Of a stretch of DNA of 14,980 nucleotides, positions 1,946 to 14,254 are shown piece after piece. A program made the position numbers and the translations under genes. Source of the stretch: Chloroflexota bacterium (GTDB lineage Bacteria; Chloroflexota; Dehalococcoidia; SAR202; UBA11138); contig JADFQF010000006.1 in NCBI GenBank assembly GCA_022561955.1, positions 1 through 14,980 of the forward strand, read 5' to 3'. The notes beneath the pieces are model-generated. The model was not told the origin of the DNA. It saw only the letters and a program-made list of their open reading frames with translations, and made no database searches. The first letter of the stretch is position 1. Every line of letters begins with the position of its first letter.

Positions 1946-2437
1946 TTTCTACGCATCACCACTGAATGTATCGGCCGATAGTATTGTTGTCAAGCACCGC
2001 ATGGCCCTTCGTACTGGGAAAAGGCGTTCAACGTTGAGCCTGCCCCGGAAGAGCACGCCGCTACATGATGGTGCAGGAAGACGGCGTCGCGGGCTGCCAT
2101 CACTTTCCGACTCGAATGTGGTTGAGCGTCTAACTTAGTGCAAGGTCCAGGTCCACTTGGAGAACCCAGTTCAGAATACAATGTGCCTTTCCAACTCCTG
2201 TAGATATCCCTCTGCGTGGTGGTTCAGTCCTAGGCCATTTTCAACATATTCATAGCTGGGCCATTGGCTCAAGGATGCTCTTCTCGGTAGTACCACCTAG
2301 CGTCTTCGGAGTGATCTACCTTGGCTGTCACGGTTGGCGGCAATAACCACCGACGTACAGATTGAACGTAAGGGTACGGAGTGATAGTGTGTAAGCGGAG
2401 TGAACACGTTACACCCTTGAACCAGGTTGGGGACTGC
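1946..2437. other. divergent intergenic region with no recognisable gene
   Basis: About 490 bases lie between the small frameshifted gene (minus) and the start of the wzz-like gene (plus). All frames are interrupted. Short open stretches exist, such as one around 1990-2068 in the plus direction that reads YWEKAFNVEPAPEEHAA before a stop, but none has a start, a ribosome site and a recognisable product. The region should hold the promoters for the two divergent transcripts; a weak plus-strand candidate is listed separately. Confidence 0.5.
2362..2390 (+). promoter_or_regulatory. weak candidate promoter for the wzz-like gene
   Basis: TTGAAC (2362-2367) and TAGTGT (2385-2390) are 17 bases apart and lie about 48 bases before the preferred ATG of the wzz-like gene. 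The -35 matches the consensus at four of six positions and the -10 at only three, so this is tentative. An inverted repeat, GTGTAA (2389-2394) and TTACAC (2409-2414), follows at once and could be an operator or part of the leader. Confidence 0.25.
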
Positions 2438-3784
2438 ATGACTCAAGATCAAGAGCATTTTTTAGATGGCGGAATCGATGTTGGAGCTTATATTGCTATA
2501 CTCCTTCGGAAATGGTGGGTCGTGCTTTCGGTTTTCTTGCTCGTCGTCGGTTTCGCTTTCCTGAACAACGATCGTCAGCCGGATGTCTACGAGGCCCGTA
2601 CCAGGGTGCTGATATTGTCTCCTGTCTCAGAGCGGCTGTTGGCCAATGAGGGCACCCCAGGAGATCGATTACCAATAAACCCATTCCTGGGATCCAAAAT
2701 CTCCGTAGATACGCTGTCGGCTCTCGGAGCTTCTAATGATCTCCTTGGGGAAATAATCGAGCGCTTGGGTCTGCGGGTATTGCCCGCGGGAGACCTATGG
2801 TCAGTTGAGCAGCTTCGAAGCATCATAGAAATCAGGTTTGAAAATCCCGGCGGAGGTCAAGGTTCTTTACCACTTATAACTATGACAGCTCGCTCGGGAG
2901 ACCCCAACGTGGCCAAACGCGTTGCAGAAACGTGGGCAGAGCTATTTATCGATCAGAATAGCAAGATATTCGCCACGGAAGCCAGCCGATCTTACAATTT
3001 TGTTGTTGGTCAGTTCAACGACACGGATGAAGAGCTCCGGCTGAAAGAAGACGAAATCATACAAATGCAAAGGCAGAGTTCCCCCAAAATCTTGCAGAGC
3101 CAGCTCAAAGTTCTTACTTTAAAATATGAGGAATTTTATGATCGGCTTCTCGAAAAACGGTCCAAGCTTGTTGGAGTAAAGGCCATATTAGCAAGCACAG
3201 AGGAGGCACTTACCGATGAGCCACGAGTTGTCACGCTGGAGCAGTCCATCTCCAGTGAGGCGCTGTTAGTGCTCCTCGCGAGTGGGAGGGAGGATCTCGA
3301 TCTCAACGGAGTTGCGGACCTGGTTTCGACAACCCAGGAGAGAAACGCTCTTTACTATTCAATGAAAGGGAATATAATCGGGACGCGATCCGAATTATCG
3401 GCTTTGAACTCGGACATCGAGTACTTAGAAACCTCGACCTTGAACCTTCAGAACCAGATAAAGGAGATTTCCAGCGAAATCTCTGAAAGACTTTTGGTTC
3501 AGAAGCGACTAAATCAAGAAGTCACCCTACTTACCGAAAATTTCGACCGCCTGGCACGGAGTTTGCAGCGGTCTCAAATTACCAAGGAAGAGCAATCGGG
3601 CTTCGTCCAAATCGTGGAATCCGCGGTGAAACCAAGGCAGCCTGTGGCGCGCGAAAGCCGACGCGCCATCCTTATTGCTGGCATGGGTGGCCTAGTTGTA
3701 GGTGTGGGCATGGCCTTCGTTGTGCACTTTGCTCAGGAGGCTTTCCGAAGCGGCAGAAAAGACGAAGTAGAGCACGATTCATAG
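2438..3784 (+). CDS. Wzz-like polysaccharide chain-length determinant / co-polymerase
   Basis: A 448-residue protein with the architecture of Wzz/PCP proteins that set surface polysaccharide chain length at the cytoplasmic membrane. A short cytoplasmic N-terminus leads to a first membrane segment at about 25-43 (KWWVVLSVFLLVVGFAF). The extracytoplasmic domain begins with the usual YEARTRVLI strand. A long charged coiled-coil region (about 190-380) is followed by a proline-containing VKPRQPVARES element and a second membrane segment near 410-430 (IAGMGGLVVGVGMAFVV). No Walker motifs or tyrosine-rich tail follow, so it lacks a fused BY-kinase. The frame is open further upstream to a GTG at 2381, but the ATG at 2438 is preferred because GGGGA precedes it closely and the protein then starts like other family members. 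The gene is visibly AT-richer than pyrG or the lipoprotein genes, suggesting transfer. Confidence 0.85.
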   Translation: MTQDQEHFLDGGIDVGAYIAILLRKWWVVLSVFLLVVGFAFLNNDRQPDVYEARTRVLILSPVSERLLANEGTPGDRLPINPFLGSKISVDTLSALGASNDLLGEIIERLGLRVLPAGDLWSVEQLRSIIEIRFENPGGGQGSLPLITMTARSGDPNVAKRVAETWAELFIDQNSKIFATEASRSYNFVVGQFNDTDEELRLKEDEIIQMQRQSSPKILQSQLKVLTLKYEEFYDRLLEKRSKLVGVKAILASTEEALTDEPRVVTLEQSISSEALLVLLASGREDLDLNGVADLVSTTQERNALYYSMKGNIIGTRSELSALNSDIEYLETSTLNLQNQIKEISSEISERLLVQKRLNQEVTLLTENFDRLARSLQRSQITKEEQSGFVQIVESAVKPRQPVARESRRAILIAGMGGLVVGVGMAFVVHFAQEAFRSGRKDEVEHDS

Positions 3785-3820
3785 GATGTGACACGCCGCG
3801 TTACGCGTCGATGAGCAGTT

Positions 3821-3990
3821 TTACCGACCCTGCATCTCTCCGTTGCCCGGGACGTTCAAGAATTCTGCTTCGCCTTGGTACCGGTCATGCTTTCTTTCGC
3901 ACATGCGGCAGCTTCCAGGCGGTTCATGCCGTCGGAAAATATCAACCCGAACCATCCTGCGCAAAAGCACCTCCAGAATGAATATCGACT
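3821..3990 (-). pseudogene. decayed 3'-terminal fragment of a second rho gene
   Basis: Read on the minus strand, this stretch matches the last ~45 codons of the intact rho at 5983-7248, but with frame changes. One frame gives VLLRRMV (rho: VLLRRMVGM). A one-base insertion after ATGGT shifts to IFSDGMNRLEAA (rho: [12 protein letters not shown]). The first frame then resumes with ERKHDRYQGEAEFLNVPGN (rho: [18 protein letters not shown]), ending at a TAA at 3823-3821. At DNA level the segment TTCCGACGG-ATGAAC is shared. Similarity fades beyond about 3976-3990, so only the 3' end is preserved. It cannot encode a working Rho. It lies on the same strand as intact rho, with manC between them, so it looks like the trace of a duplication or of an insertion next to rho. 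Its divergence suggests an old event or a different donor. Confidence 0.7.
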
Positions 3991-4281
3991 TACCTAACGG
4001 ACTTTCTTTAGACCGATTCGGGTTTGGAGGCGTGACGAAGTAACCACACGGGACGCGAATTTTGGCGCTGCTATGATATCAAACCCCGTTCGGAGCCAAG
4101 TTTTTTTCACCGGACGGATACCTTATTTGAGTGACTTACATGACAAATCTGAATTGACTAGCTAATCATCACTCCTCTAATCTTGAATCCGCCCGATATT
4201 TCACCCGAATATCTTCAGTGACTTGCAGGCGGTTTCTGAAAGCTGGCAGACCACCAGTCTCTCCACTGAACGGAGGAGCAA
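3991..4281. other. intergenic region upstream of manC, no gene seen
   Basis: No frame here has a start, ribosome site and coherent product. I looked for an upstream continuation of the rho fragment in all minus frames and could not follow it. The stretch is AT-rich and holds a possible terminator hairpin, listed separately. A promoter for manC is expected here but none stands out. Confidence 0.4.
4062..4107 (+). terminator. weak candidate intrinsic terminator
   Basis: TTGGC (4062-4066) pairs with GCCAA (4095-4099) and is followed by a run of seven T (4101-4107). The stem is short and the loop long (28 bases, with a small CCG/CGG inside), so folding energy would be modest. It lies about 280 bases after the wzz-like stop, with the rho remnant in between, and could end that transcript before manC. 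Confidence 0.25.
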
Positions 4282-5772
4282 ATGGCTATCGTTCCCATAA
4301 TTTTGGCGGGCGGATCCGGTACCCGGCTGTGGCCCTTGTCACGGGAGCTTTATCCAAAGCAGTTTCTCCCATTGATGGGCGACCGCTCGCTTCTGCAGGA
4401 GACGTTGTCGCGCATCGACGGCGTACCGAATATTGGCGCCCCGATCATCGTCTGCAACGAGGAGCATAGATTCCTGGCCGCTGAGAACGCGAGGCAACTC
4501 GGAATTAAGCCGGCGGCCATCGCCCTGGAGCCCGTCGGACGCAACACTGCGCCGGCACTAACGCTGGCATCGCTCATGATCCCACAGATAACGAAAGGGT
4601 CGACTGCCGAAGACCCGGTGATGCTCGTGATGCCGGCGGACCACCTGATAGAAGACGTCGAGGTATTTCGAATAGCCCTGATCCGTGGCGCCGCGCTTGC
4701 CGACACAGGCGCCATCGTTACCTTTGGAATCGAACCTGACGCTCCTGAGTCCGGCTATGGTTACATTCGAAAGGGCAAGCATACCTCGGGCGAAGGCAAC
4801 TCCGCTCCAGGCCATTACAATGTGTCCGCCTTCGTCGAAAAGCCGGAACCCATTGATGCGCAAAGGATGGTGGACGCTGGAGAGTACCTCTGGAACAGTG
4901 GAATCTTTATGGTCAGACCTTCAATTTGGCTTCGAATTCTTGGTCGGTTTAGGCCAGACATCCTTGAGGCATGCGAGTCGGCGCACGACCAAAGCAAATG
5001 GGACGGAGACTTCTACAGGCCCGACGCCAAGATATTCAGCTCTTGCCCCAGTGACTCCATAGACTACGCCGTGATGGAGAGGGTCGGAGAAGACCACTCT
5101 ATGACAGATAGGATCGATTCCGCCGCGTGCGTGGTCTTGCCGCTGGAGACCGGCTGGTCCGACCTTGGCGCATGGTCTACGATTTGGGGCCGGGGGAATC
5201 AGGACGCCGACGGAAACGTAATTCGCGGCGATGTCTATGCCCGTGGCATGAAAAACTCGCTAATATTCGGAGAGCATCGCCTCGTCGCGGCGGTCGGATT
5301 AGAGGACATAATAGTCGTGGAGACGGCCGATGCGGTACTCGTGGCCAACAGGGACGAAGTTCAGGGCGTAAAGGACCTCGTAGGCCGGCTGAAAGACGAG
5401 GGGCGTAAGGAGCAAGTAAACCATCGTAAGGTCCACAGGCCCTGGGGTTTCTACGAGACCATAGATGTCGGAGCCCACTTCCAGGTCAAACGTCTCGAGA
5501 TAAATCCGGGATCGGCACTTTCTCTTCAAAGGCATGAGCATAGGGCGGAGCACTGGGTTGTCGTCGAAGGCACTGCAAAGGTGACCAGGGGAGACGAAGT
5601 GTTCTTGCTGACGGAAAATCAGTCGACCTACGTGCCGGTAGGAATGAAGCACCGCCTGGAAAACCCCGGCACCGTCCCCGTGGAGATAATTGAGGTGCAG
5701 ACCGGGAGCTACCTGGAAGAGGACGACATCGTCAGGTTCGAGGACCGCTATAACCGCCACAAAGACGGCTGA
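4282..5772 (+). CDS. manC: mannose-1-phosphate guanylyltransferase / mannose-6-phosphate isomerase (bifunctional)
   Basis: A 496-residue type II GMP/PMI enzyme of full family length. The N-terminal nucleotidyltransferase domain (about 1-340) opens with PIILAGGSGTRLWPLSRELY then PKQFLPL, the GTP-binding and catalytic signature, and includes VMPADHLI and FVEKPEP. The C-terminal cupin domain (about 370-485) carries HRPWGFYETI, then LQRHEHRAEHWVVVEGT near residues 415-431, whose His/Glu residues would bind the metal of the isomerase. Together they convert fructose-6-phosphate-derived mannose-6-phosphate towards GDP-mannose; the mutase step (ManB) is not in this window. The ATG is supported by GGAGGA about 7 bases upstream. 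Its neighbours (wzz-like, wecB) support a role in surface glycan supply. It converges on rho, with 210 bases between the stops. No damage is seen. Confidence 0.96.
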   Translation: MAIVPIILAGGSGTRLWPLSRELYPKQFLPLMGDRSLLQETLSRIDGVPNIGAPIIVCNEEHRFLAAENARQLGIKPAAIALEPVGRNTAPALTLASLMIPQITKGSTAEDPVMLVMPADHLIEDVEVFRIALIRGAALADTGAIVTFGIEPDAPESGYGYIRKGKHTSGEGNSAPGHYNVSAFVEKPEPIDAQRMVDAGEYLWNSGIFMVRPSIWLRILGRFRPDILEACESAHDQSKWDGDFYRPDAKIFSSCPSDSIDYAVMERVGEDHSMTDRIDSAACVVLPLETGWSDLGAWSTIWGRGNQDADGNVIRGDVYARGMKNSLIFGEHRLVAAVGLEDIIVVETADAVLVANRDEVQGVKDLVGRLKDEGRKEQVNHRKVHRPWGFYETIDVGAHFQVKRLEINPGSALSLQRHEHRAEHWVVVEGTAKVTRGDEVFLLTENQSTYVPVGMKHRLENPGTVPVEIIEVQTGSYLEEDDIVRFEDRYNRHKDG

Positions 5773-5982
5773 CTACATGCCGCAGTCCCGAAAGAGAAAG
5801 CCTCTAGGGGTCGTGCGCCCTACGCGTCGAAGCTACACGACGATTGATTTATCTACAGCGGGCGCAGAGGCGGTGTGGGGATGAAGGACTTTTCTGAAAG
5901 GCGAATAAGCGAGCCCAGAAGTAGCTCAGGGACCGACTCATCTCGTTCACGAGACTTATCGTTGCTTCTAATCGAGCGGCTA
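5773..5982. other. convergent intergenic region between manC and rho
   Basis: This 210-base gap separates two converging genes. It contains a small perfect hairpin TCTCG-TTCA-CGAGA (5941-5954), without a T run on either side, which might be a weak Rho-independent or processing element. A 35-residue plus ORF (5777-5884, starting MPQSRKRKPLG) is open here but lacks a ribosome site and is not claimed as a gene. Confidence 0.4.
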
Positions 5983-7248
5983 CTAGGACTCTCCGCCGAG
6001 GCTCGCTAGAAATTCCTTGTTGTTCTTTGTCTTGCTCAGGCGCTCTATGACCTTCTCCGTCGCCTGGAGGTGGTTCATACCGTCGGAAGTGATCATCCCG
6101 ACCATGCGTCGGAGCAACACCACCTGCTTATATGTAGCCTCGTCCAAGATAAGCTCCTCACGCCGCGTACCGCTGCGTTCGATATCGATGGCAGGGAAGA
6201 ACCGCCTCTCGGCCAGCCTGCGGTCAAGGTGGACCTCCATATTGCCGGTGCCCTTGAACTCCTCGTAGATCACCTCGTCCATGCGGCTGCCGGTGTCTAT
6301 GAGGCACGCCGCCAGTATCGTCAGGCTGCCGCCCTCCTCCGTTTTTCGCGCCGCCCCGAAGAAGTGCTTAGGCGGGTACAGGGCGACGGGATCGATTCCT
6401 CCGGAAAGCGTTCGTCCGCTGGAAGGCAAGGACAGGTTGTAGGCCCGAGTCAGCCTGGTTATGCTGTCGAGAAGAATCGCCACGTCCTTGCCACTCTCCA
6501 CGAGCCGCTTGGCGCGCTCCAGCACAAACTCGGCGACCCTGCAGTGGTCTTCCACCGGCTCATCGAATGTGGAGCTATACACCTCGCCTTTCACCGATCT
6601 CCTGACGTCGGTCACCTCTTCCGGGCGCTCGCCTATAAGGGCGACCATGATATGAATATCGGGGTGGTTCTCGCTAATCCCTTTCGCGATATCCTTTAGC
6701 AGCGTGGTCTTGCCCGCCTTGGGAGGGGAAACGATAAGGCCGCGTTGGCCGCGTCCCACGGGCGACAGCAGGTCAATCAATCGCGTGGACAGAATCTTCG
6801 GGTCCGTCTCCAGCAAAATCTGCTCTGTTGGAAACACGGCGGTGAGATTCTCGAAATGGGGTCGGCTGCGTGAGGCCTCCGGCTCGACTCCATTCACGCC
6901 CTCTACTCTTACCAGTCCGAAGTAGCGCTCGCCGTCTTTGGGTGGCCTGACCTGGCCGGTGATCTCGTCGCCGGTCCTCAGGCCAAACCGCCTGATCTGA
7001 GATTGAGATACGTATACGTCTCCGGTGCCCTGTTGCCCTCCGATCTGTCGGAGAAAGCCATATCCCTCGCTTACTATGGACAAAATACCGCTCGCCTTGA
7101 GATTACCGTTCTGCTCGGCAAGGGTATTTAGCACCCTGGACATAAGGTCCTGACGTTTTTGAACGGCCCCGTTTTCCGTCAGGCCCATCTCTTTGGCGAG
7201 GTCATTCAGCTGCTCATTGTCCAGGCTTTGCAATTCAGTCAGATTCAT
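5983..7248 (-). CDS. rho: transcription termination factor Rho
   Basis: A 421-residue hexameric RNA/DNA helicase that ends transcription by translocating along C-rich nascent RNA. From the preferred start it begins [14 protein letters not shown], like the family N-terminal helix bundle. A cold-shock-type RNA-binding domain follows with GYGFLR, the RNP1-like strand, near 63-67. The ATPase core has the P-loop [11 protein letters not shown] at about 174-184, the Q-loop region around SGRTLSGG (277-284) and the C-terminal [15 protein letters not shown] block (329-343). An in-frame ATG four codons upstream (7260) is possible, but the ATGGAGAAGAAAATG arrangement places GGAG at a good distance before the second ATG, and family alignment supports that one. 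The gene is complete. A broken copy of its 3' end lies at 3821-3990. Confidence 0.97.
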
Positions 7249-7771
7249 TTTCTTCTCCATAACCTGAATTCATCAGGCTACAACTTTCTCGAAACGCAAT
7301 TTCCAATATTGCTAATTAATTGCGGTGCTTCGTTAGATTTTGCATAGCATTAGTTAGTGGCGAGGCTCGGGTGCTCCTCATACTTATCGGGGGGAGTCTC
7401 CATTAGGTTAGGAACGTGCCTGGTGTGATGGGGCGTCAATCCGCTTCAGATAGCGCTTGACTACGCGAATGAATCAAAGCCTGGGAATGTCGCCTGATTC
7501 GAATAGTTTCCTATCTGGAAGGTCTCTTTAGAGAAAGATCATTCATCTACTTCGCGAAGACCCAACGATAAAGGTACGGCTTCACCAGACGGCAAACCTC
7601 TTATCATTAGAGGCGCCTAAGTCCTCTGGGATGCAGACACCGATCTGAGAAGACTACCGCGACTTTTTCCACAGGCGCACTGACCAAGGGAATTCGCTAA
7701 AGCAAACAAAATCTTTGGAAGATACGTGAAGGAGATTACATTAATAACGTATCATATTGAGCCGAATTCGT
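7249..7771. other. intergenic region between pyrG and rho, no gene seen
   Basis: About 520 bases separate the pyrG stop from the rho start. No coherent reading frame, tRNA or known RNA motif is visible. It should contain the rho promoter and 5' leader; a small inverted repeat GCAAT-ATTGC lies around 7296-7312, and CCTCT-AGAGG around 7598-7614. The length would allow a regulatory leader for rho, whose expression is often self-limited through early termination, but nothing here proves it. Confidence 0.4.
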
Positions 7772-9436
7772 CTACACCTTTTTCATGTCTACAATTGAAT
7801 CCGTTTCTTCGAGAGGCATCGCGTGCTGACCACCTTCTCTAAGTGTCCTTTTTGCGGCACCGATAAACTCCCTAAATAGCGGATGTGGCCGATCGGGCCG
7901 GGAGAGGAACTCCGGATGGAACTGCGTACCCAGCATGAACGGCTGCCCCACCATCTCCATGATCTCCACGAGATTTCCGTCGGGAGATAGCCCGGTTGGC
8001 CAGAGTCCCGCCGCTTCGAACTCCTCCTTGTAGCTGTTGTTGAACTCGAACCTGTGGCGATGCCTTTCGTAGACCCGTGGCTCGCCATACGCCCTGGAGG
8101 CCAAACTGCCCTTGACCACATCGCAAGGATATACGCCGAGCCTCATCGTGCCGCCCTTCTGAGTAACGTCTTTCTGGTCGGGCATGATGTCGATCACCGG
8201 GTCGGGGGTATCCGGATCGCATTCCGTCGTGTTGGCGTCTTTTCTCCCGAGAAGCGCTCGGGCGACGTCGATGACCATTACCTGTAGGCCCAGGCATAGC
8301 CCCAGATAAGGAACGCCGTGGTTTCGCGCGTAACGCACGGTCTCGATCATGCCCTCCACGCCACGGCTCCCAAACCCTCCAGGGACCACGATGCCCTGGA
8401 CCGACTTCAGGAACTCGTCGGGGCCGAACTCTTCGACGTCTTCGGAGTTGATCCATTTCACTTCTACATCGCAATCGTGGGCCAGCCCAGCGTGTATCAG
8501 GGCCTCTTTAACGGATATATATGAGTCCCGTAGATTGACGTATTTGCCGACCACGGCTATGGACAGCACCTGCTTGGGAGCCTTCAGGTCGTTCACCATC
8601 CGGCGCCACTCGACCATATCTCTCCCATTTGTCTGGATGTTCAGGGTCTCGACTATGAGGTCTCCAAGCCCTTCTTCCTCCAGGATGAGAGGGACCTCGT
8701 ACACCGTGTCGACGGTCGGAAGTGTGATGACTCCCCGCGCCGCGACGTCGCAGTGCACGGTTATCTTCCGTTTGATCTCCTCGCTCATCTCGTGGTCGCT
8801 ACGACAGATTATCGCGTCGGGCTGTATCCCGATGGAGCGAAGCTCGCGCACGCTGTGCTGAGTAGGCTTGCTCTTAAGCTCATCGGTCGCGGATATGTAC
8901 GGTAGGAAGGTCACATGTATGTAGAAGACGTTGTCTCTCCCCACCTCGTTGCGCATCTGCCGTATGGCCTCCAGAAACGGCAAGCCTTCTATGTCGCCGA
9001 CGGTACCGCCAACTTCGACGATTATGACCTCTGCCTGGCTCTCTTCCGCCAGGCCGCGAATGCGCTCCTTGATGGCGTCTGTGACGTGAGGTATCGCCTG
9101 TATCGTTCCTCCGAGGAACTCCCCCTTGCGCTCTCTGGAGATGATATCGCTGTAGATCTGCCCGGCCGTCAAATTGGACGAGCGGGTGAGGTCCAAGTCT
9201 ATGAAGCGCTCGTAGTGCCCGAGGTCCAGGTCGGTCTCGCAGCCATCCTTGGTCACGAAGACCTCGCCGTGCTGAAACGGCGACATCGTTCCCGGGTCCA
9301 CGTTGAGATACGGGTCCAGCTTGAGGACCGACACAGTAACCCCGCGACTCTTCAGGATTCTACCCAGAGAAGCGACGCTGATGCCCTTGCCTACGGAGCT
9401 AACGACACCGCCCGTTACAAATATGTACTTGGTCAT
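7772..9436 (-). CDS. pyrG: CTP synthase (glutamine hydrolysing)
   Basis: A 554-residue complete CTP synthase, which aminates UTP to CTP with ATP and glutamine, the last step of pyrimidine nucleotide synthesis in the cytoplasm. The synthetase domain (about 1-265) begins KYIFVTGGVVSSVGKGISVA, including the nucleotide-binding loop, and has DPGTMSPFQHGEVFVTKDG and EVGGTVGDIEGLPFLEAIRQ. The class I glutamine amidotransferase domain (about 292-535) has the nucleophile in LGLCLGLQ (Cys381) and the His507/Glu509 pair in GTQFHPEF. The ATG at 9436 is preceded by AGAGGG about 10 bases away. The C-terminal tail of about 20 residues after the amidotransferase fold is acidic and poorly conserved in the family. 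It is on the same strand as rho but separated by more than 500 bases, so co-transcription is uncertain. Confidence 0.98.
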   Translation of the reverse strand: MTKYIFVTGGVVSSVGKGISVASLGRILKSRGVTVSVLKLDPYLNVDPGTMSPFQHGEVFVTKDGCETDLDLGHYERFIDLDLTRSSNLTAGQIYSDIISRERKGEFLGGTIQAIPHVTDAIKERIRGLAEESQAEVIIVEVGGTVGDIEGLPFLEAIRQMRNEVGRDNVFYIHVTFLPYISATDELKSKPTQHSVRELRSIGIQPDAIICRSDHEMSEEIKRKITVHCDVAARGVITLPTVDTVYEVPLILEEEGLGDLIVETLNIQTNGRDMVEWRRMVNDLKAPKQVLSIAVVGKYVNLRDSYISVKEALIHAGLAHDCDVEVKWINSEDVEEFGPDEFLKSVQGIVVPGGFGSRGVEGMIETVRYARNHGVPYLGLCLGLQVMVIDVARALLGRKDANTTECDPDTPDPVIDIMPDQKDVTQKGGTMRLGVYPCDVVKGSLASRAYGEPRVYERHRHRFEFNNSYKEEFEAAGLWPTGLSPDGNLVEIMEMVGQPFMLGTQFHPEFLSRPDRPHPLFREFIGAAKRTLREGGQHAMPLEETDSIVDMKKV

Positions 9437-9454
9437 TGTTGATAGCCCTCTACT

Positions 9455-9460
9455 AGTATA
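9455..9460 (-). promoter_or_regulatory. candidate -10 box for pyrG
   Basis: TATACT on the minus strand lies 18 bases before the pyrG ATG. It would start transcription around 9448 and leave a leader of about a dozen bases with the AGAGGG ribosome site. The -35 at the matching distance (TTCCAT) is poor, so only the -10 is proposed. Confidence 0.3.
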
Positions 9461-9610
9461 TTCAGAGAATCGCAGAGCATGGAACCACAGAATAGTTTCA
9501 TATACGGCTACACACCACGATTAGGGCACAGCATTACACGGAGTTTGCAATAAAGACTTGATAATTCAAGGAGGGACGAGAGGGGTAGTTCGAGAAGGGG
9601 GCCTGTCATA

Positions 9611-9631
9611 GCGAGAGAATGCAACTCTCGC
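9611..9631. repeat. perfect hairpin, 7-base stem
   Basis: GCGAGAG and CTCTCGC flank a 7-base loop (AATGCAA). The stem is perfect. No T run follows on either strand, so it is not a standard terminator; it might be a regulatory or processing structure or a protein-binding palindrome in the pyrG upstream region. Confidence 0.5.
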
Positions 9632-9647
9632 AAGCTCATGCCGACCT

Positions 9648-9664
9648 TTCGATTTTCAATCGAA
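9648..9664. repeat. perfect hairpin, 7-base stem, 3-base loop
   Basis: TTCGATT and AATCGAA flank TTC. It begins 17 bases after the previous hairpin. The AT-rich stem would also serve as a dyad operator. No function can be assigned. Confidence 0.45.
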
Positions 9665-9911
9665 CAAGGCTAACCAATGGCTGGTCACTTCCCCTCTATT
9701 TGTTGTGGAAAGTATAGGGCCGTTGAGAAATCATTGTCAATTCAATCCTAGCATCAGCCGGAAGATACCGGAAGGGCAGATGGCCGTGAATCCACTGAAT
9801 TCAAGATGGAAGCAGAGCAATTGCGACGACTAATGCGCGGGGGCTGATAAGGGCGGGGTGACCCACGAAACAGTGTTTTGGAATGGGCGCTGCCCTTCTA
9901 TTTTCCGATGA

Positions 9912-9941
9912 TTAACGTCGAGACGGCGCGTGATGTAGTAT
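9912..9941 (+). promoter_or_regulatory. candidate promoter for the metalloprotease gene
   Basis: TTAACG (9912-9917) and TAGTAT (9936-9941) are separated by 18 bases; each matches the consensus at four of six positions. The predicted start near 9948 would leave a leader of about 23 bases carrying the AAAGGAGA ribosome site before the TTG start. Confidence 0.3.
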
Positions 9942-9970
9942 TGATTGGCAGACTCTAAAGGAGACGTAGC

Positions 9971-10873
9971 TTGAGCATCGCGGTGATACCCGCCTATAAG
10001 GTGATCGCAAAGTCGGCCAGGCAGGCGGTGGGACTTCCCTTCGAGGAGGCCGTGAACAAGCTGGAAGAGGGTCTTCGCAGCTATATCAGGGACCTGCTTT
10101 CGAACCTGCATACATCCTTTGTAGACCTGGGGGAGAGGTCGGCCGTGGCGCAACTTGGCGACCCGAACCCCGAAGAGCTCCTGGACGCCTTGAGCGCCCT
10201 CGAGTCGGGTGAGCCGAAGGGCATTGTCGAAGATGCGCTGGCGTTATGCGTGAAGCACATGCCACGATCCGACCTCGACGCGCGGGTCGTACTGCTTCCA
10301 GGCGACGGGAACAGCACGGTGCTGGTGAACAAATTGAACGGCGCGCTGGGATTCAGTCTGGGCGCCCAGGTGATGATGGTATTTCTGTGGCCCACCGATA
10401 GCTGGCAGACCTGGCTCAGGCATACGGTCACGCACGAATACGCCCATCTGGTGAGGAACCTGCTGTTCCCCAGGGGGCTTGCGGGCGGCAAGCTCATTTA
10501 CTTGAAGACGCAGGAGCCCGAAACGCTGCTGGATGCCCTGGTAGCCGAGGGCCTGGCGGACACGTTTGCGAAGCAGGTCCTGCCGGACATCTCACCTCTG
10601 TGGACCGAAGCGCCCTTCGATGACCGGGAGGCCATCGTCTGGCGCCGCGTGCATCGCAGGCTCGGCGTCTCCGAGCCGATCGAGATACGAAGAATCCTCT
10701 TCGGCGACAACGACAGGATACCTCAATGGGCCGGGTACAGCTTCGGATACCGGATAGTCGGCGACTTCCTGAAAGCGAACCCCGGTACTGACATTGCGGA
10801 GCTCATGGACCTGCCCGCGAAGGCCATATATGAAGGCAGCGGCTTTCAGGCCAGGCAGGAGTCGGCCCTTTAG
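9971..10873 (+). CDS. DUF2268-like predicted zinc metalloprotease
   Basis: A 300-residue cytoplasm-type protein (no signal peptide) with the zinc motif HEYAH at residues 155-159 and a downstream LLDALVAEGLAD segment in which Glu193 fits as the third zinc ligand. This HExxH plus EGLA arrangement is typical of the DUF2268 (YjaZ-like) predicted Zn-dependent proteases, whose substrates are mostly unknown. The start is TTG at 9971, chosen because AAAGGAGA ends 6 bases before it and the frame upstream offers nothing better. The stop overlaps by 3-4 bases with the stop of the convergent serine-protease lipoprotein gene, leaving no room for a bidirectional terminator. Peptidase function is inferred from motifs; the substrate cannot be told. 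Confidence 0.8.
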   Translation: MSIAVIPAYKVIAKSARQAVGLPFEEAVNKLEEGLRSYIRDLLSNLHTSFVDLGERSAVAQLGDPNPEELLDALSALESGEPKGIVEDALALCVKHMPRSDLDARVVLLPGDGNSTVLVNKLNGALGFSLGAQVMMVFLWPTDSWQTWLRHTVTHEYAHLVRNLLFPRGLAGGKLIYLKTQEPETLLDALVAEGLADTFAKQVLPDISPLWTEAPFDDREAIVWRRVHRRLGVSEPIEIRRILFGDNDRIPQWAGYSFGYRIVGDFLKANPGTDIAELMDLPAKAIYEGSGFQARQESAL

Positions 10874-12765
10874 GGCGCCACCGCGAATCGCGAAATTATA
10901 CGCTCCACCGTGGGCTCAAGGTCGGGCCAGTCAGCGAGGCCGCTCTGAACGGTGAGCCAGACGGCGGCATCACCACTGAGCATCAGCAGCACGGCGCCGC
11001 GAACGACGACGCCGTCCTCCGCAGACCCTTCGTAGTCGATCCTGTAGCCCGGATTCGATCGCCGTTCGAACACCTTCCCACGCGACAGCACTCGAAGTCT
11101 CGGGTCCGTGAGCTCGACGCTGTCGCCGTACTCTTCGATGCTCGCGGCGGCTGAGCCGGGCCGGACCTCCACCCACAGAATTCCGGTGCCGGTCGATTGT
11201 GTCGCGAAGTATTCGGTACGCTCCCCAGAACCCTTCGTCCATTCGGGAGGATGTGAGATCGAGAACAGGGAACTGTCGTCCGTGAAGACGGAGGGATCGA
11301 ACGAGTCCTGAATCTGAAGCAGCCGGCTCCACTGCTCGGCCTCTTCATCCCAGAGCCGCTTCTCTGCGATGGCCTCCAGGCTAATCAGATAGTTTCCCAG
11401 TACGAACCAGTGCACGCGGCCCTGCCAACGCTCGCCGGCGTCGCGGTGCCTCGTTACGTACTCGTGGGCGGGGACCGGCAGACGGCTGCGAATAGGGCCG
11501 TCGTTCAGGACTCGGAAGTCGGTCCAAGAGGTGGCCGGTCCGGGCACCCAGCTCGCAACATAGCTCTCTATCGAGGAAAACTTTTCCGGGTCTATGACGT
11601 CTGCCGCGATCAGGATTACACTCTCCGTGACGGGCTCCCAGATCAGGACTCTGTCCGGATTGCTCGAGCTTATTCGCCATCCTTCCGCAACGTCCACCGA
11701 GTACCAGTGCCTGTCGTTGACGTAACGGAAGCCCGACTCCTGTTCGGGCCCCGAGGTAAAAGACTTTTCGGGAGCCGCCTCACCAGAGACGCGGACAATT
11801 CTGCCGTTCATGAGGTCCGGGAGCAGCTCCTGAACCGTATTCGAAGAAATGGCCAGGCCGATTCCCAGCACCTGCCGGCCCAGCGCAAGGTCGATCCTGG
11901 AGGTGTTGATTCCCACGACCTCGCCACTGGTATTAATCAGCGGCCCCCCGCTGTTGCCGGGATTAATCGCGGCATCGGTCTGAAGGTACTCGACGGAGTC
12001 CGTAAAGCGTCTCGACGACACGACTCCCTTCGTAACCGTCGCCGTCGAGCCAAGTATATCGCCGAGAGGGAATCCTATAGCGACAACGTCTTCGCCTTCA
12101 CTGACGACGTCGGAGTCGGCAAAGGTCAAGATCTGGAGCACCCCGAAGCCCTCGAGTCGGATGACGGCGAGATCTATCTCTTCGTCAAGGCCGACAACCC
12201 TCCCCTTGATCGGAGTCCGCCCATCTATCATTACCGCGACATCCAGAGAGTTTCCGACGACGTGGGCGTTCGTCACCACCCATCCATCTTCGCTAAACAC
12301 GAATCCCGAGCCCGTTCCCGCGTCGGAGATTATCTGGACGACCGCGGATTTTATTTCGGCAATGACCTTGGACAGGGTAGGGGTCGCGGTCGGACGCGGG
12401 GTGGACGTCGGAGGGGGCGCAGGTGTGGGCGTTGAGGTCGCCTTGGGCAGCGGGCTGTTCGTGGGCGTTGGCACAGGCGTGAACGTCGGCGCCGGCAGAG
12501 AAGTCGCCGTGGGAACGGGAATTGCGGTAGCCGTGAGGGTCGGAGTATTGGCCAACTTCCGGGCCGAGATGGCCTCGACCGTTCGCCGGACCCGCACCGC
12601 GACAGTGGCCTCGGCGTCGATTTCCGGCATGGCCGTTTCTCTGGGCAGCGCGGCGGCGACGGCGGCCTGGACCGTGGCTTCGATATTAGGCTGTGGCGTC
12701 GCCTGGCAGCCGACCAGTACGATCAGACCCACCAATGTCATCGAGCCCCAAGAAAGACCCCGCAT
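10870..12765 (-). CDS. HtrA/DegP-type (S1C) serine protease lipoprotein with two C-terminal PsbP-like modules
   Basis: A 631-residue exported, lipid-anchored protease. The signal peptide MRGLSWGSMTLVGLIVLVGC ends in a lipobox (LVGC, Cys20). An Ala/Thr/Val-rich helix (about 26-72) and a Thr/Pro-rich linker (about 78-130) follow. The trypsin-like domain (about 132-325) has the full triad: His168 in TNAHVV, Asp198 in EIDLAVIRL and Ser272 in NPGNSGGPL. No PDZ domain follows. Instead residues 355-489 and 501-629 look like two diverged copies of a PsbP/DUF1795-like fold, each opening with a 'YSVDVAEGW' / 'FSISHPPEW' strand and closing with an amphipathic helix. The frame extends upstream to a TTG at 12801, but that TTG is part of the -35 box, so the ATG at 12765 is chosen. 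It likely acts outside the membrane in protein quality control or processing; the substrate is unknown. Confidence 0.9.
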   Translation of the reverse strand: MRGLSWGSMTLVGLIVLVGCQATPQPNIEATVQAAVAAALPRETAMPEIDAEATVAVRVRRTVEAISARKLANTPTLTATAIPVPTATSLPAPTFTPVPTPTNSPLPKATSTPTPAPPPTSTPRPTATPTLSKVIAEIKSAVVQIISDAGTGSGFVFSEDGWVVTNAHVVGNSLDVAVMIDGRTPIKGRVVGLDEEIDLAVIRLEGFGVLQILTFADSDVVSEGEDVVAIGFPLGDILGSTATVTKGVVSSRRFTDSVEYLQTDAAINPGNSGGPLINTSGEVVGINTSRIDLALGRQVLGIGLAISSNTVQELLPDLMNGRIVRVSGEAAPEKSFTSGPEQESGFRYVNDRHWYSVDVAEGWRISSSNPDRVLIWEPVTESVILIAADVIDPEKFSSIESYVASWVPGPATSWTDFRVLNDGPIRSRLPVPAHEYVTRHRDAGERWQGRVHWFVLGNYLISLEAIAEKRLWDEEAEQWSRLLQIQDSFDPSVFTDDSSLFSISHPPEWTKGSGERTEYFATQSTGTGILWVEVRPGSAAASIEEYGDSVELTDPRLRVLSRGKVFERRSNPGYRIDYEGSAEDGVVVRGAVLLMLSGDAAVWLTVQSGLADWPDLEPTVERIISRFAVAP

Positions 12766-12801
12766 GTAAGAATTATATAGACGGCATGTGGGGCTCCTCA
12801 A
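12530..12801 (-). repeat. duplicated promoter-signal-anchor cassette, copy in the serine protease gene
   Basis: The promoter, lipoprotein signal and the first ~78 codons correspond to those of the CAP gene (copy at 13955-14225). In a gapless hand alignment 59 of the first 78 residues are identical, with PRETAMPEIDAEATVAVRV wholly conserved, and the DNA is similarly close in the anchor region. After it the two linkers diverge, and the catalytic domains are unrelated. Confidence 0.75.
12772..12801 (-). promoter_or_regulatory. promoter of the serine protease gene, apparently leaderless
   Basis: TTGAGG (12801-12796), an 18-base spacer and a perfect TATAAT (12777-12772) are followed after six bases by the ATG at 12765. 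Transcription would start at the A of the ATG. No Shine-Dalgarno site fits this ATG, consistent with a leaderless mRNA. The paralogous CAP gene has the same arrangement. Confidence 0.7.
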
Positions 12802-12821
12802 TCTCCTACCGGGCCTGAATG

Positions 12822-14189
12822 CTATCGCTGGATGGCCGAAAGCTGAAGAATAGATTCAGTAAGCCGAGGCCCCGCGGCCGCCCGCCACACGACGACCGTG
12901 TACACCCCCGGCTCGGTGGCTAACGAACCAAGCCCGGCCAGGAACGAGAATCCATCAGAGTTTTCGCTCCAGGCCTCGGCCACGACCGCGTCGGGACCTA
13001 AATCTGAGTAGTAAGAGCCCGGCGGAGGTGGTTTGAGAATCCTCGCAATGGGCCCGACGCAGTCCGTTGTGAAGCCCCCGCCGAGGCAGTAGCTTCTGAG
13101 CGACTCAATCTGCGCCGGAGTCTTCCGGCTTGGCGGTGGATCGTAGTAGACGCTTATGACATTAGCGATGTCGACGCCGTCCGCGAGCTTTGTCAGCTCT
13201 AGCGAGAGAGTGCCGTCGGCTCCGATTTGGGGTGGGCTATTCGCGGCAACGTCTCCACCCTCAAAATGCTGCACGAAGACCGTTCGGCGGCCATTCCAGG
13301 CTATGCCTATGTTCACGAAGCGATGCGTCGTGCCGAGGATATTGTCGCGGTGCCCCCAGTCGGAGTCTGCATCGTCGTACACCATGTCCCACTCCGCCCG
13401 CTCCACCTCTTCACCAGGCTCCGGGACCTCACAGACCACCAGGTAGGAGTCGCAGTTTTTCTCGTCCCAGCGCTTGTCGGTCCAACCGCCGTAAGAGACG
13501 TTCTCCTTCGCGTAGCTCTTACCACCGGTCTCCGTGTACACCATGTATGGTTTTCGCCCATCCGACCACCAGTGGCCAAAGTAATCTTGCTCCAGCATGT
13601 CCTCGGCGTGCAGCTGTGCGGCTATGTTCGATCCCAAGGCTACCGGCGGCACGCCGTGATCGGCTCTGTCCTGATTTATCAGGTCGAGGGCGAGACGGCG
13701 TAGCTCGATTATCCGCTCCGACCGTGCAGCAACAGTCGGGATAGGGGTGCTCGTCGAAGTCTGCGTAGACGTCGGACGCGGCGTGAAGGTCGGCTGGGCC
13801 GTCGATGTAGCTTTTTGCGGCGGCTTGCTCGTGGGCGTCGGAATCGGTGTGAACGTAGAAGTGGCTCCAGGCAGCGGGCTGATCGCAGGCGTCGGTGCCG
13901 GCGTGAGCGTCGAGGTCGGCAGGGAGGTCGCCGCAAGAACGGCAGTCGCGGTACTCCCGAGGGCCGGGATATTGGCCAGTGTCTGGGCTGAAACAGCCTC
14001 GACCGTTCGCTGGACCCGCACCGCGACGGTGGCCTCGGCGTCGATTTCGGGCATGGCCGTTTCTCTGGGCGGCGCGGCGGCGACGGCGGCCTGGACGACG
14101 GATTCGATATTAGGCCGTGGCGTCGCCTGGCAGCCAACAAGTGTTGAAAGACCTGCAAACGCTACGACACCCCATAAAAGACCCCGCAT
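12822..14189 (-). CDS. CAP/SCP1 (PR-1 superfamily) domain lipoprotein
   Basis: A 455-residue lipid-anchored extracytoplasmic protein. The signal peptide MRGLLWGVVAFAGLSTLVGC ends in lipobox Cys20, followed by an anchor helix and a Thr/Pro-rich linker to about residue 155. The CAP domain (about 158-312) starts ELRRLALDLINQDRADHGV and contains QLHAEDM (His194), FGHW (His206), AKENVSYG (Glu229) and the hallmark WGHRDNIL (His280), the residues that line the CAP pocket. An acidic insertion with two cysteines (KNCDSYLVVCEVPEPGEE) lies between Glu229 and His280. About 140 C-terminal residues (VDIANVISVYYDPPPS onward) are unassigned and look beta-rich. Bacterial CAP proteins have varied or unknown activities. 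The TTG at 14225 is part of the -35 box and is rejected as a start. The gene precedes the serine protease gene by 56 bases, and that gene has its own promoter. Confidence 0.88.
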   Translation of the reverse strand: MRGLLWGVVAFAGLSTLVGCQATPRPNIESVVQAAVAAAPPRETAMPEIDAEATVAVRVQRTVEAVSAQTLANIPALGSTATAVLAATSLPTSTLTPAPTPAISPLPGATSTFTPIPTPTSKPPQKATSTAQPTFTPRPTSTQTSTSTPIPTVAARSERIIELRRLALDLINQDRADHGVPPVALGSNIAAQLHAEDMLEQDYFGHWWSDGRKPYMVYTETGGKSYAKENVSYGGWTDKRWDEKNCDSYLVVCEVPEPGEEVERAEWDMVYDDADSDWGHRDNILGTTHRFVNIGIAWNGRRTVFVQHFEGGDVAANSPPQIGADGTLSLELTKLADGVDIANVISVYYDPPPSRKTPAQIESLRSYCLGGGFTTDCVGPIARILKPPPPGSYYSDLGPDAVVAEAWSENSDGFSFLAGLGSLATEPGVYTVVVWRAAAGPRLTESILQLSAIQR

Positions 14190-14225
14190 GCAAAAATTAT
14201 ACCGACGGTTCACGAAAATTCTCAA
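13955..14225 (-). repeat. duplicated promoter-signal-anchor cassette, copy in the CAP gene
   Basis: This is the partner of the segment at 12530-12801. The two are in direct orientation about 1.4 kb apart, so recombination between them could delete or exchange the CAP gene. Confidence 0.75.
14196..14225 (-). promoter_or_regulatory. promoter of the CAP-domain lipoprotein gene, apparently leaderless
   Basis: TTGAGA (14225-14220), an 18-base spacer and a perfect TATAAT (14201-14196) are followed after six bases by the ATG at 14189. The predicted start is the A of the ATG. Spacing is identical to the promoter at 12772-12801, while the spacer sequences differ. Confidence 0.7.
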
Positions 14226-14254
14226 TGTCCTATCGGGCCCAAATGTCCTTTAGC

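Follow-up and report, generated by a model that had tools for sequence, protein, structure and literature searches.

The window analysed here, a stretch of 14,980 nucleotides, joins a wzz-like gene and manC to an intact rho gene that is followed by pyrG (Table 1). Wzz and manC are separated by a gap of 497 bases, and within this gap sits a decayed remnant of a second rho 3′ end, 48 bases lying between the stop codon of wzz and the remnant position equivalent to the rho stop codon. The manC gene is convergent on rho both in the window and in the genome with the most similar rho, designated G071.

Table 1. Genes and other features of the window; coordinates are window positions.
Feature	Position	Strand	Basis or remark
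wecB-like epimerase	2-895	minus	truncated at window edge
RfaH/UpxY-like NusG paralogue	1022-1642	minus	
wzz-like chain-length determinant	2381-3784	plus	Pfam GNVR and Wzz; homologue adjoins rho in G126
rho 3′-end remnant, last ~50-55 codons	envelope 3830-4008, aligned 3841-3993	minus	nhmmer, shuffles, codon-position spread
best-kept part of remnant	3911-3970	minus	profile positions 283-341
unassigned DNA, gap between remnant and manC	4009-4281		presumed to contain the junction
manC, mannose-1-phosphate guanylyltransferase / mannose-6-phosphate isomerase	4282-5772	plus	TIGR01479 above cut-off; synteny with G071
rho, intact, 425 aa	5983-7260	minus	ORF; NCBIfam NF006886 and TIGR00767 above cut-off
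pyrG	7772-9436	minus	
DUF2268 protease, trypsin-like protein, CAP-domain protein, FAA hydrolase	beyond pyrG, in that order		

Several other features of the window were recorded. The NusG paralogue, which adjoins wzz and stands three genes away from rho, is nearest to RfaH (TIGR01955) and UpxY, with both matches below cut-off, and is likely to be an antiterminator of the polysaccharide operon. Two long stretches, 1643-2380 and 7261-7771, carry no assigned gene, and the latter is 85% identical to its counterpart in G071. On the far side of pyrG, the trypsin-like and CAP-domain proteins have a duplicated N-terminal part in common (12422-12821 and 13846-14245; 77.8% DNA identity over 401 bases), so that two otherwise distinct proteins carry a lipoprotein-like head. 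The trypsin-like gene of G071 likewise matches both copies of this part, and the CAP gene of G071 is cut by the end of its contig.

A sequence-only reading of the window had claimed a decayed extra copy of the rho 3′ end between wzz and manC, and had proposed comparing its alignment with that of shuffled sequence. When the reverse complement of 3781-4281 was aligned locally with the intact rho, the score was 43 (at window 3917-3972), whereas 500 dinucleotide shuffles averaged 21.6 and reached 30 at most. We also built a DNA profile from the last 420 bases of 60 rho genes, namely those of a set of 75 whose proteins are at least 66% identical, leaving out 15. In an nhmmer search of the window, this profile matched the intact rho and the minus strand from 3993 to 3841 (22.0 bits, E = 1.9e-7), with no other match at E <1. 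The second match covers profile positions 260-412 of 420, collinear with roughly the final 160 bp of rho and on the same strand as rho. Conservation is uneven along its length, with 46 of 59 bases identical to the G071 rho in the best-kept part versus 50 of 93 in the remainder (Fisher p 0.003). In the profile alignment, on the 5′ side of the best-kept part, 12 of 23 bases are identical to the G071 rho, a level reached by three of 2000 composition shuffles, and on the 3′ side 38 of 70, reached by none of 2000. The segment is confirmed as a second copy of the rho 3′ end, with similarity above chance. The originally proposed extent of 3821-3990 identified the right region but fell slightly short, the match reaching to about 3993-4008. 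Short pieces of the remnant had no exact copies in viral contigs or in 212 loci. The adjoining DNA at 4009-4281 had no match among the tblastx matches listed against the 75 rho loci, nor among the blastn matches listed against seven manC loci.

The reading frame of the remnant is broken by one +1 and one −1 shift, and its alignment with rho contains one inserted and one deleted base; by eye from the alignments, the extra base follows ATGGT and the missing base is near GGCGAA. The description of matching blocks in alternating frames was accurate, and the blocks are collinear with rho. One of the blocks, given as 'ERK', came from the wrong frame: that stretch, in the middle part of the remnant, reads in the other frame, where the alignment gives the matching residues E..T.TK (by eye). 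The reading had also ended the copy in a stop codon at the place equivalent to that of rho. A stop codon is present (3821-3823), but it lies about 12 bases, or about four codons, past the equivalent of the rho stop, which falls at about 3833-3835 when the profile alignment is extended.

Over the 152 sites aligned with the window rho (about 50 codons), the remnant has 19, 20 and 27 mismatches at the first, second and third codon positions; the corresponding counts for the intact rhos of the window and the relative G126 are 12, 4 and 27. Given that mismatches in the remnant are spread over all three codon positions, coding constraint appears to have been lost, and the remnant looks like non-coding debris. 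Together with the nhmmer match, this spread bears out the claim of a decayed extra copy. Of 152 sites compared with the G071 rho, 56 (37%) differ in the remnant. The window and G071 have diverged less than this in either spacer: by 27% between rho and manC (195 aligned sites, with 17 further gap columns) and by 15% between pyrG and rho (510 sites). By this plain neutral yardstick, the remnant is therefore older than the split between the window and G071. Within 3700-4330 there are no terminator-like sites and one promoter-like match (4140-4169), with 0.4 expected by chance. A functional RNA at the remnant was considered and rejected, there being no Rfam match at the gathering threshold anywhere in the window.

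The 75 sequences with an intact rho (74 others and the window) amount to 732,098 bases, with 135 to 8,523 bases of DNA downstream of each rho and many flanks incomplete. At E up to 1, a second rho match was detected in two of these loci, the window (9.4e-6) and L030 (0.91, chance level). No rho fragment was found in the 74 other loci, many of which have short flanks, and the window alone carries one. Whether other glycan islands end at rho fragments had been raised as a question; within this sample it is no rule, with one of 75 rho flanks, the window itself, showing such an end. Two further candidates were dismissed: in G003 the second rho match is a piece of another rho at the edge of a contig, and in G120 a single gene broken by a run of N gives a split match. 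A wzz or manC gene adjoins rho in three of the 75 loci, those of the window, G071 and G126.

We next turn to the rho neighbourhoods of relatives. The order was sampled twice, at 247 genomes each and with mostly overlapping membership, and the closest rhos in these samples are those of G071 (94% amino acid identity), G126 (81%) and G067 (77%). At the G126 locus, L118, an intact rho (2296-3558, minus) faces a convergent wzz-like gene (838-2211, plus), and the 84 bases between them contain no manC. Because wzz faces rho directly there, the remnant most likely marks an old boundary, as had been supposed. The wzz proteins of the window and G126 are 36% identical (E 1e-75). Window-type wzz is rare: in the order, six genomes out of 250 have it at E <= 1e-10, and in the family it occurs in one of eight genomes. 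Among the six genomes of the order it adjoins rho only in G126, with wzz and rho on different contigs in the other five. Given this rarity, and given that only the wzz of G126 is rho-adjacent, the position of wzz beside rho in one lineage and beside rho debris in the other is unlikely to be due to chance. A comparison of the wzz-rho spacers of G126 and the window gave a best local score of 17; among 1000 letter shuffles the 95th percentile was 16 and the highest score 25, and we give the result no weight. G126 has a second wzz-like reading frame (L118:26-808) in tandem upstream of 838-2211, close to the edge of the contig, and its match to wzz is confined to the C-terminal part.

The G071 locus (L117) aligns with window 4327-13304 in a single alignment of 88.7% identity and has the manC-rho arrangement of the window. 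Its contig ends inside manC, and searches elsewhere in the G071 assembly, for wzz at the protein level and for window 2300-4281 at the DNA level, gave no match. Neither wzz nor manC was found in the rho flanks of G099, G111, G041, G002 and G087 (852 to 8,523 bases downstream), and these five flanks of the family thus give no sign of a wzz-rho contact older than the ancestor of the window and G126. In G119, of the same family, no rho was found beyond weak matches. In G126, G087 and G002, manC lies elsewhere and is followed by an aminotransferase gene. The aminotransferase gene of G071 has no manC within 1,500 bases upstream, which is compatible with a move of manC without proving it. At that locus (L215, G071:C357), a frame resembling FAA hydrolase, as judged by eye from its translation, occupies the opposite strand upstream of the aminotransferase gene in the place of manC. 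In an unrooted manC tree, the rho-side copies of the window and G071 pair on a long branch, whose joining point has moderate support (74 and 82).

Of the 60 rho genes, those closest to the remnant are G071 (63.2% identity), the window (56.6%) and G126 (55.9%). In a maximum-likelihood tree of 54 rows including the remnant, from which identical rows and rows with no more than 400 filled positions were dropped, the remnant joins the pair of G071 and the window with support of 89, and G126 comes next with 84. On this best tree, the remnant would branch off after G126, from the stem that leads to G071 and the window. The AU test did not reject attachment to G071 (p = 0.51), to G126 (0.51), to the more distant rho L169 (0.47) and to the stem of the window, G071 and G126 together. 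Attachment to the window's own rho (p = 0.056) or to G067 (p = 0.053) was borderline, and attachment to L140 was rejected (p = 0.016). The rhos of the window and G071 differ at 13 sites; the remnant carries the G071 base at 11 of these and the window base at one. At nine of the sites G071 has more of the 58 other rhos on its side than the window has, and the remnant follows them at seven; at the remaining four, two of which fall in one codon, the window has more, and at all four the remnant agrees with G071. Because an origin in the stem lineage does not predict four out of four, this G071-like pattern tells against a simple stem origin.

We consider it somewhat probable that a rho tail was stranded beside wzz after manC and a second rho 3′ end had come between them. 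The starting state would have been a rho gene ending beside wzz, as in G126. In an ancestor shared by G071 and the window, DNA carrying manC and a homologous rho 3′ end would have entered at rho, through a single crossover within rho or an equivalent tandem-type duplication. Rho would have acquired its 3′ end from the incoming copy, manC thereby becoming convergent on it, and the displaced old tail, severed from its 5′ part, would have lost its function and drifted. We infer this order of events, and the crossover, from the remnant and its decay, the contact of wzz with rho in G126, and the contact of manC with rho in G071 and the window. The same layout would result from a single crossover with DNA bearing a rho tail and manC, from tandem-type duplication or from site-specific integration, and the data do not separate these routes. 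Counted against this history is that the remnant is seen in the window only, with no second genome. The history also departs from the idea that the remnant dates from the arrival of the glycan genes, in that wzz appears to be an old neighbour and that it was manC and a fresh rho tail that would have come between. With the identity between the wzz proteins of the window and G126 at just 36%, the glycan genes themselves may also have been exchanged.

Other histories would place the rho tail beside wzz as well. The glycan cluster could have arrived later, bringing a rho tail from a G126-like donor in which wzz adjoined rho, and been joined illegitimately upstream of a manC already in place at rho. 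This fits the manC-rho arrangement of G071, whose assembly has no wzz match, and the lower GC3 of wzz (0.54) than of manC (0.68) and rho (0.73); the closer agreement of the remnant with the G071 rho at 11 of the 13 informative sites mildly favours it too. However, the decay of the remnant exceeds the divergence since the window-G071 split, so that a tail that arrived intact afterwards would be too young and decay in the donor would be needed, and the best tree places the remnant on the stem. We regard a late arrival as rather unlikely, although it is the strongest of the alternatives.

An integrase-driven element inserted at the rho 3′ end, of which the remnant and the intact tail would be the worn attachment repeats and most of the rest would be lost, seems to us improbable. 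The direct orientation, with a gene 3′ end on either side of the intervening DNA, and the single better-kept stretch of 59 bases are what such an element might leave. Yet none of the 10 scanned window proteins, which cover part of the neighbourhood, is an integrase, no tRNA was found, manC alone lies between the copies, and none of the 74 other rho loci has a rho fragment; the repeat is too diverged for a test of an attachment core. It is more improbable still that the wzz-remnant and manC-rho stretches come from different genomes and were joined in assembly. No whole genome was available for the window, and the G071 contig breaks inside manC, but the remnant is decayed and hence no mis-joined piece of a living rho, and of the 60 rhos the closest to it are those of G071, the window itself and G126.

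Truncated, duplicated 3′ ends are a known kind of gene remnant at rearrangement junctions. Like them, the rho remnant is a 5′-truncated, frame-broken and unconstrained copy in direct orientation with its intact parent gene nearby; there is no difference of principle, and what is informative in addition is a relative showing the presumed earlier neighbour. Genomic islands integrate at the 3′ ends of tRNA or protein genes and duplicate those ends. The locus resembles such islands in that the intervening DNA is flanked by an intact gene end and a displaced one, both oriented the same way, but the scanned window proteins include no integrase, one gene lies between the copies, and the repeat is too decayed to reveal an attachment core. 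Capsule and O-antigen clusters are exchanged through recombination in flanking conserved genes, as with pneumococcal cps between dexB and aliA. Here, too, glycan genes adjoin a conserved housekeeping gene capable of providing the homology, whereas no truncated second copy is left behind by a clean exchange, and wzz or manC stands beside rho in just three of 75 loci. A limited literature search found no report of a truncated rho copy at a genomic island, and we make no claim that none is in print.

A single locus is involved, and what happened there is an ordinary kind of genome rearrangement. We think it unlikely, though conceivable, that the rho 3′ end has been a repeated docking point for polysaccharide genes in this small clade, with wzz in G126 and wzz, then later manC, in the window lineage, and with the conserved rho tail providing homology for uptake or exchange. 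A molecular fossil and two relatives make an order of events readable for a glycan locus in an uncultured lineage, whose nearest named relatives are MAGs of the Chloroflexota/Dehalococcoidia. Should more genomes prove to dock glycan genes at the rho tail, this gene would become a new anchor for the exchange of surface polysaccharides.
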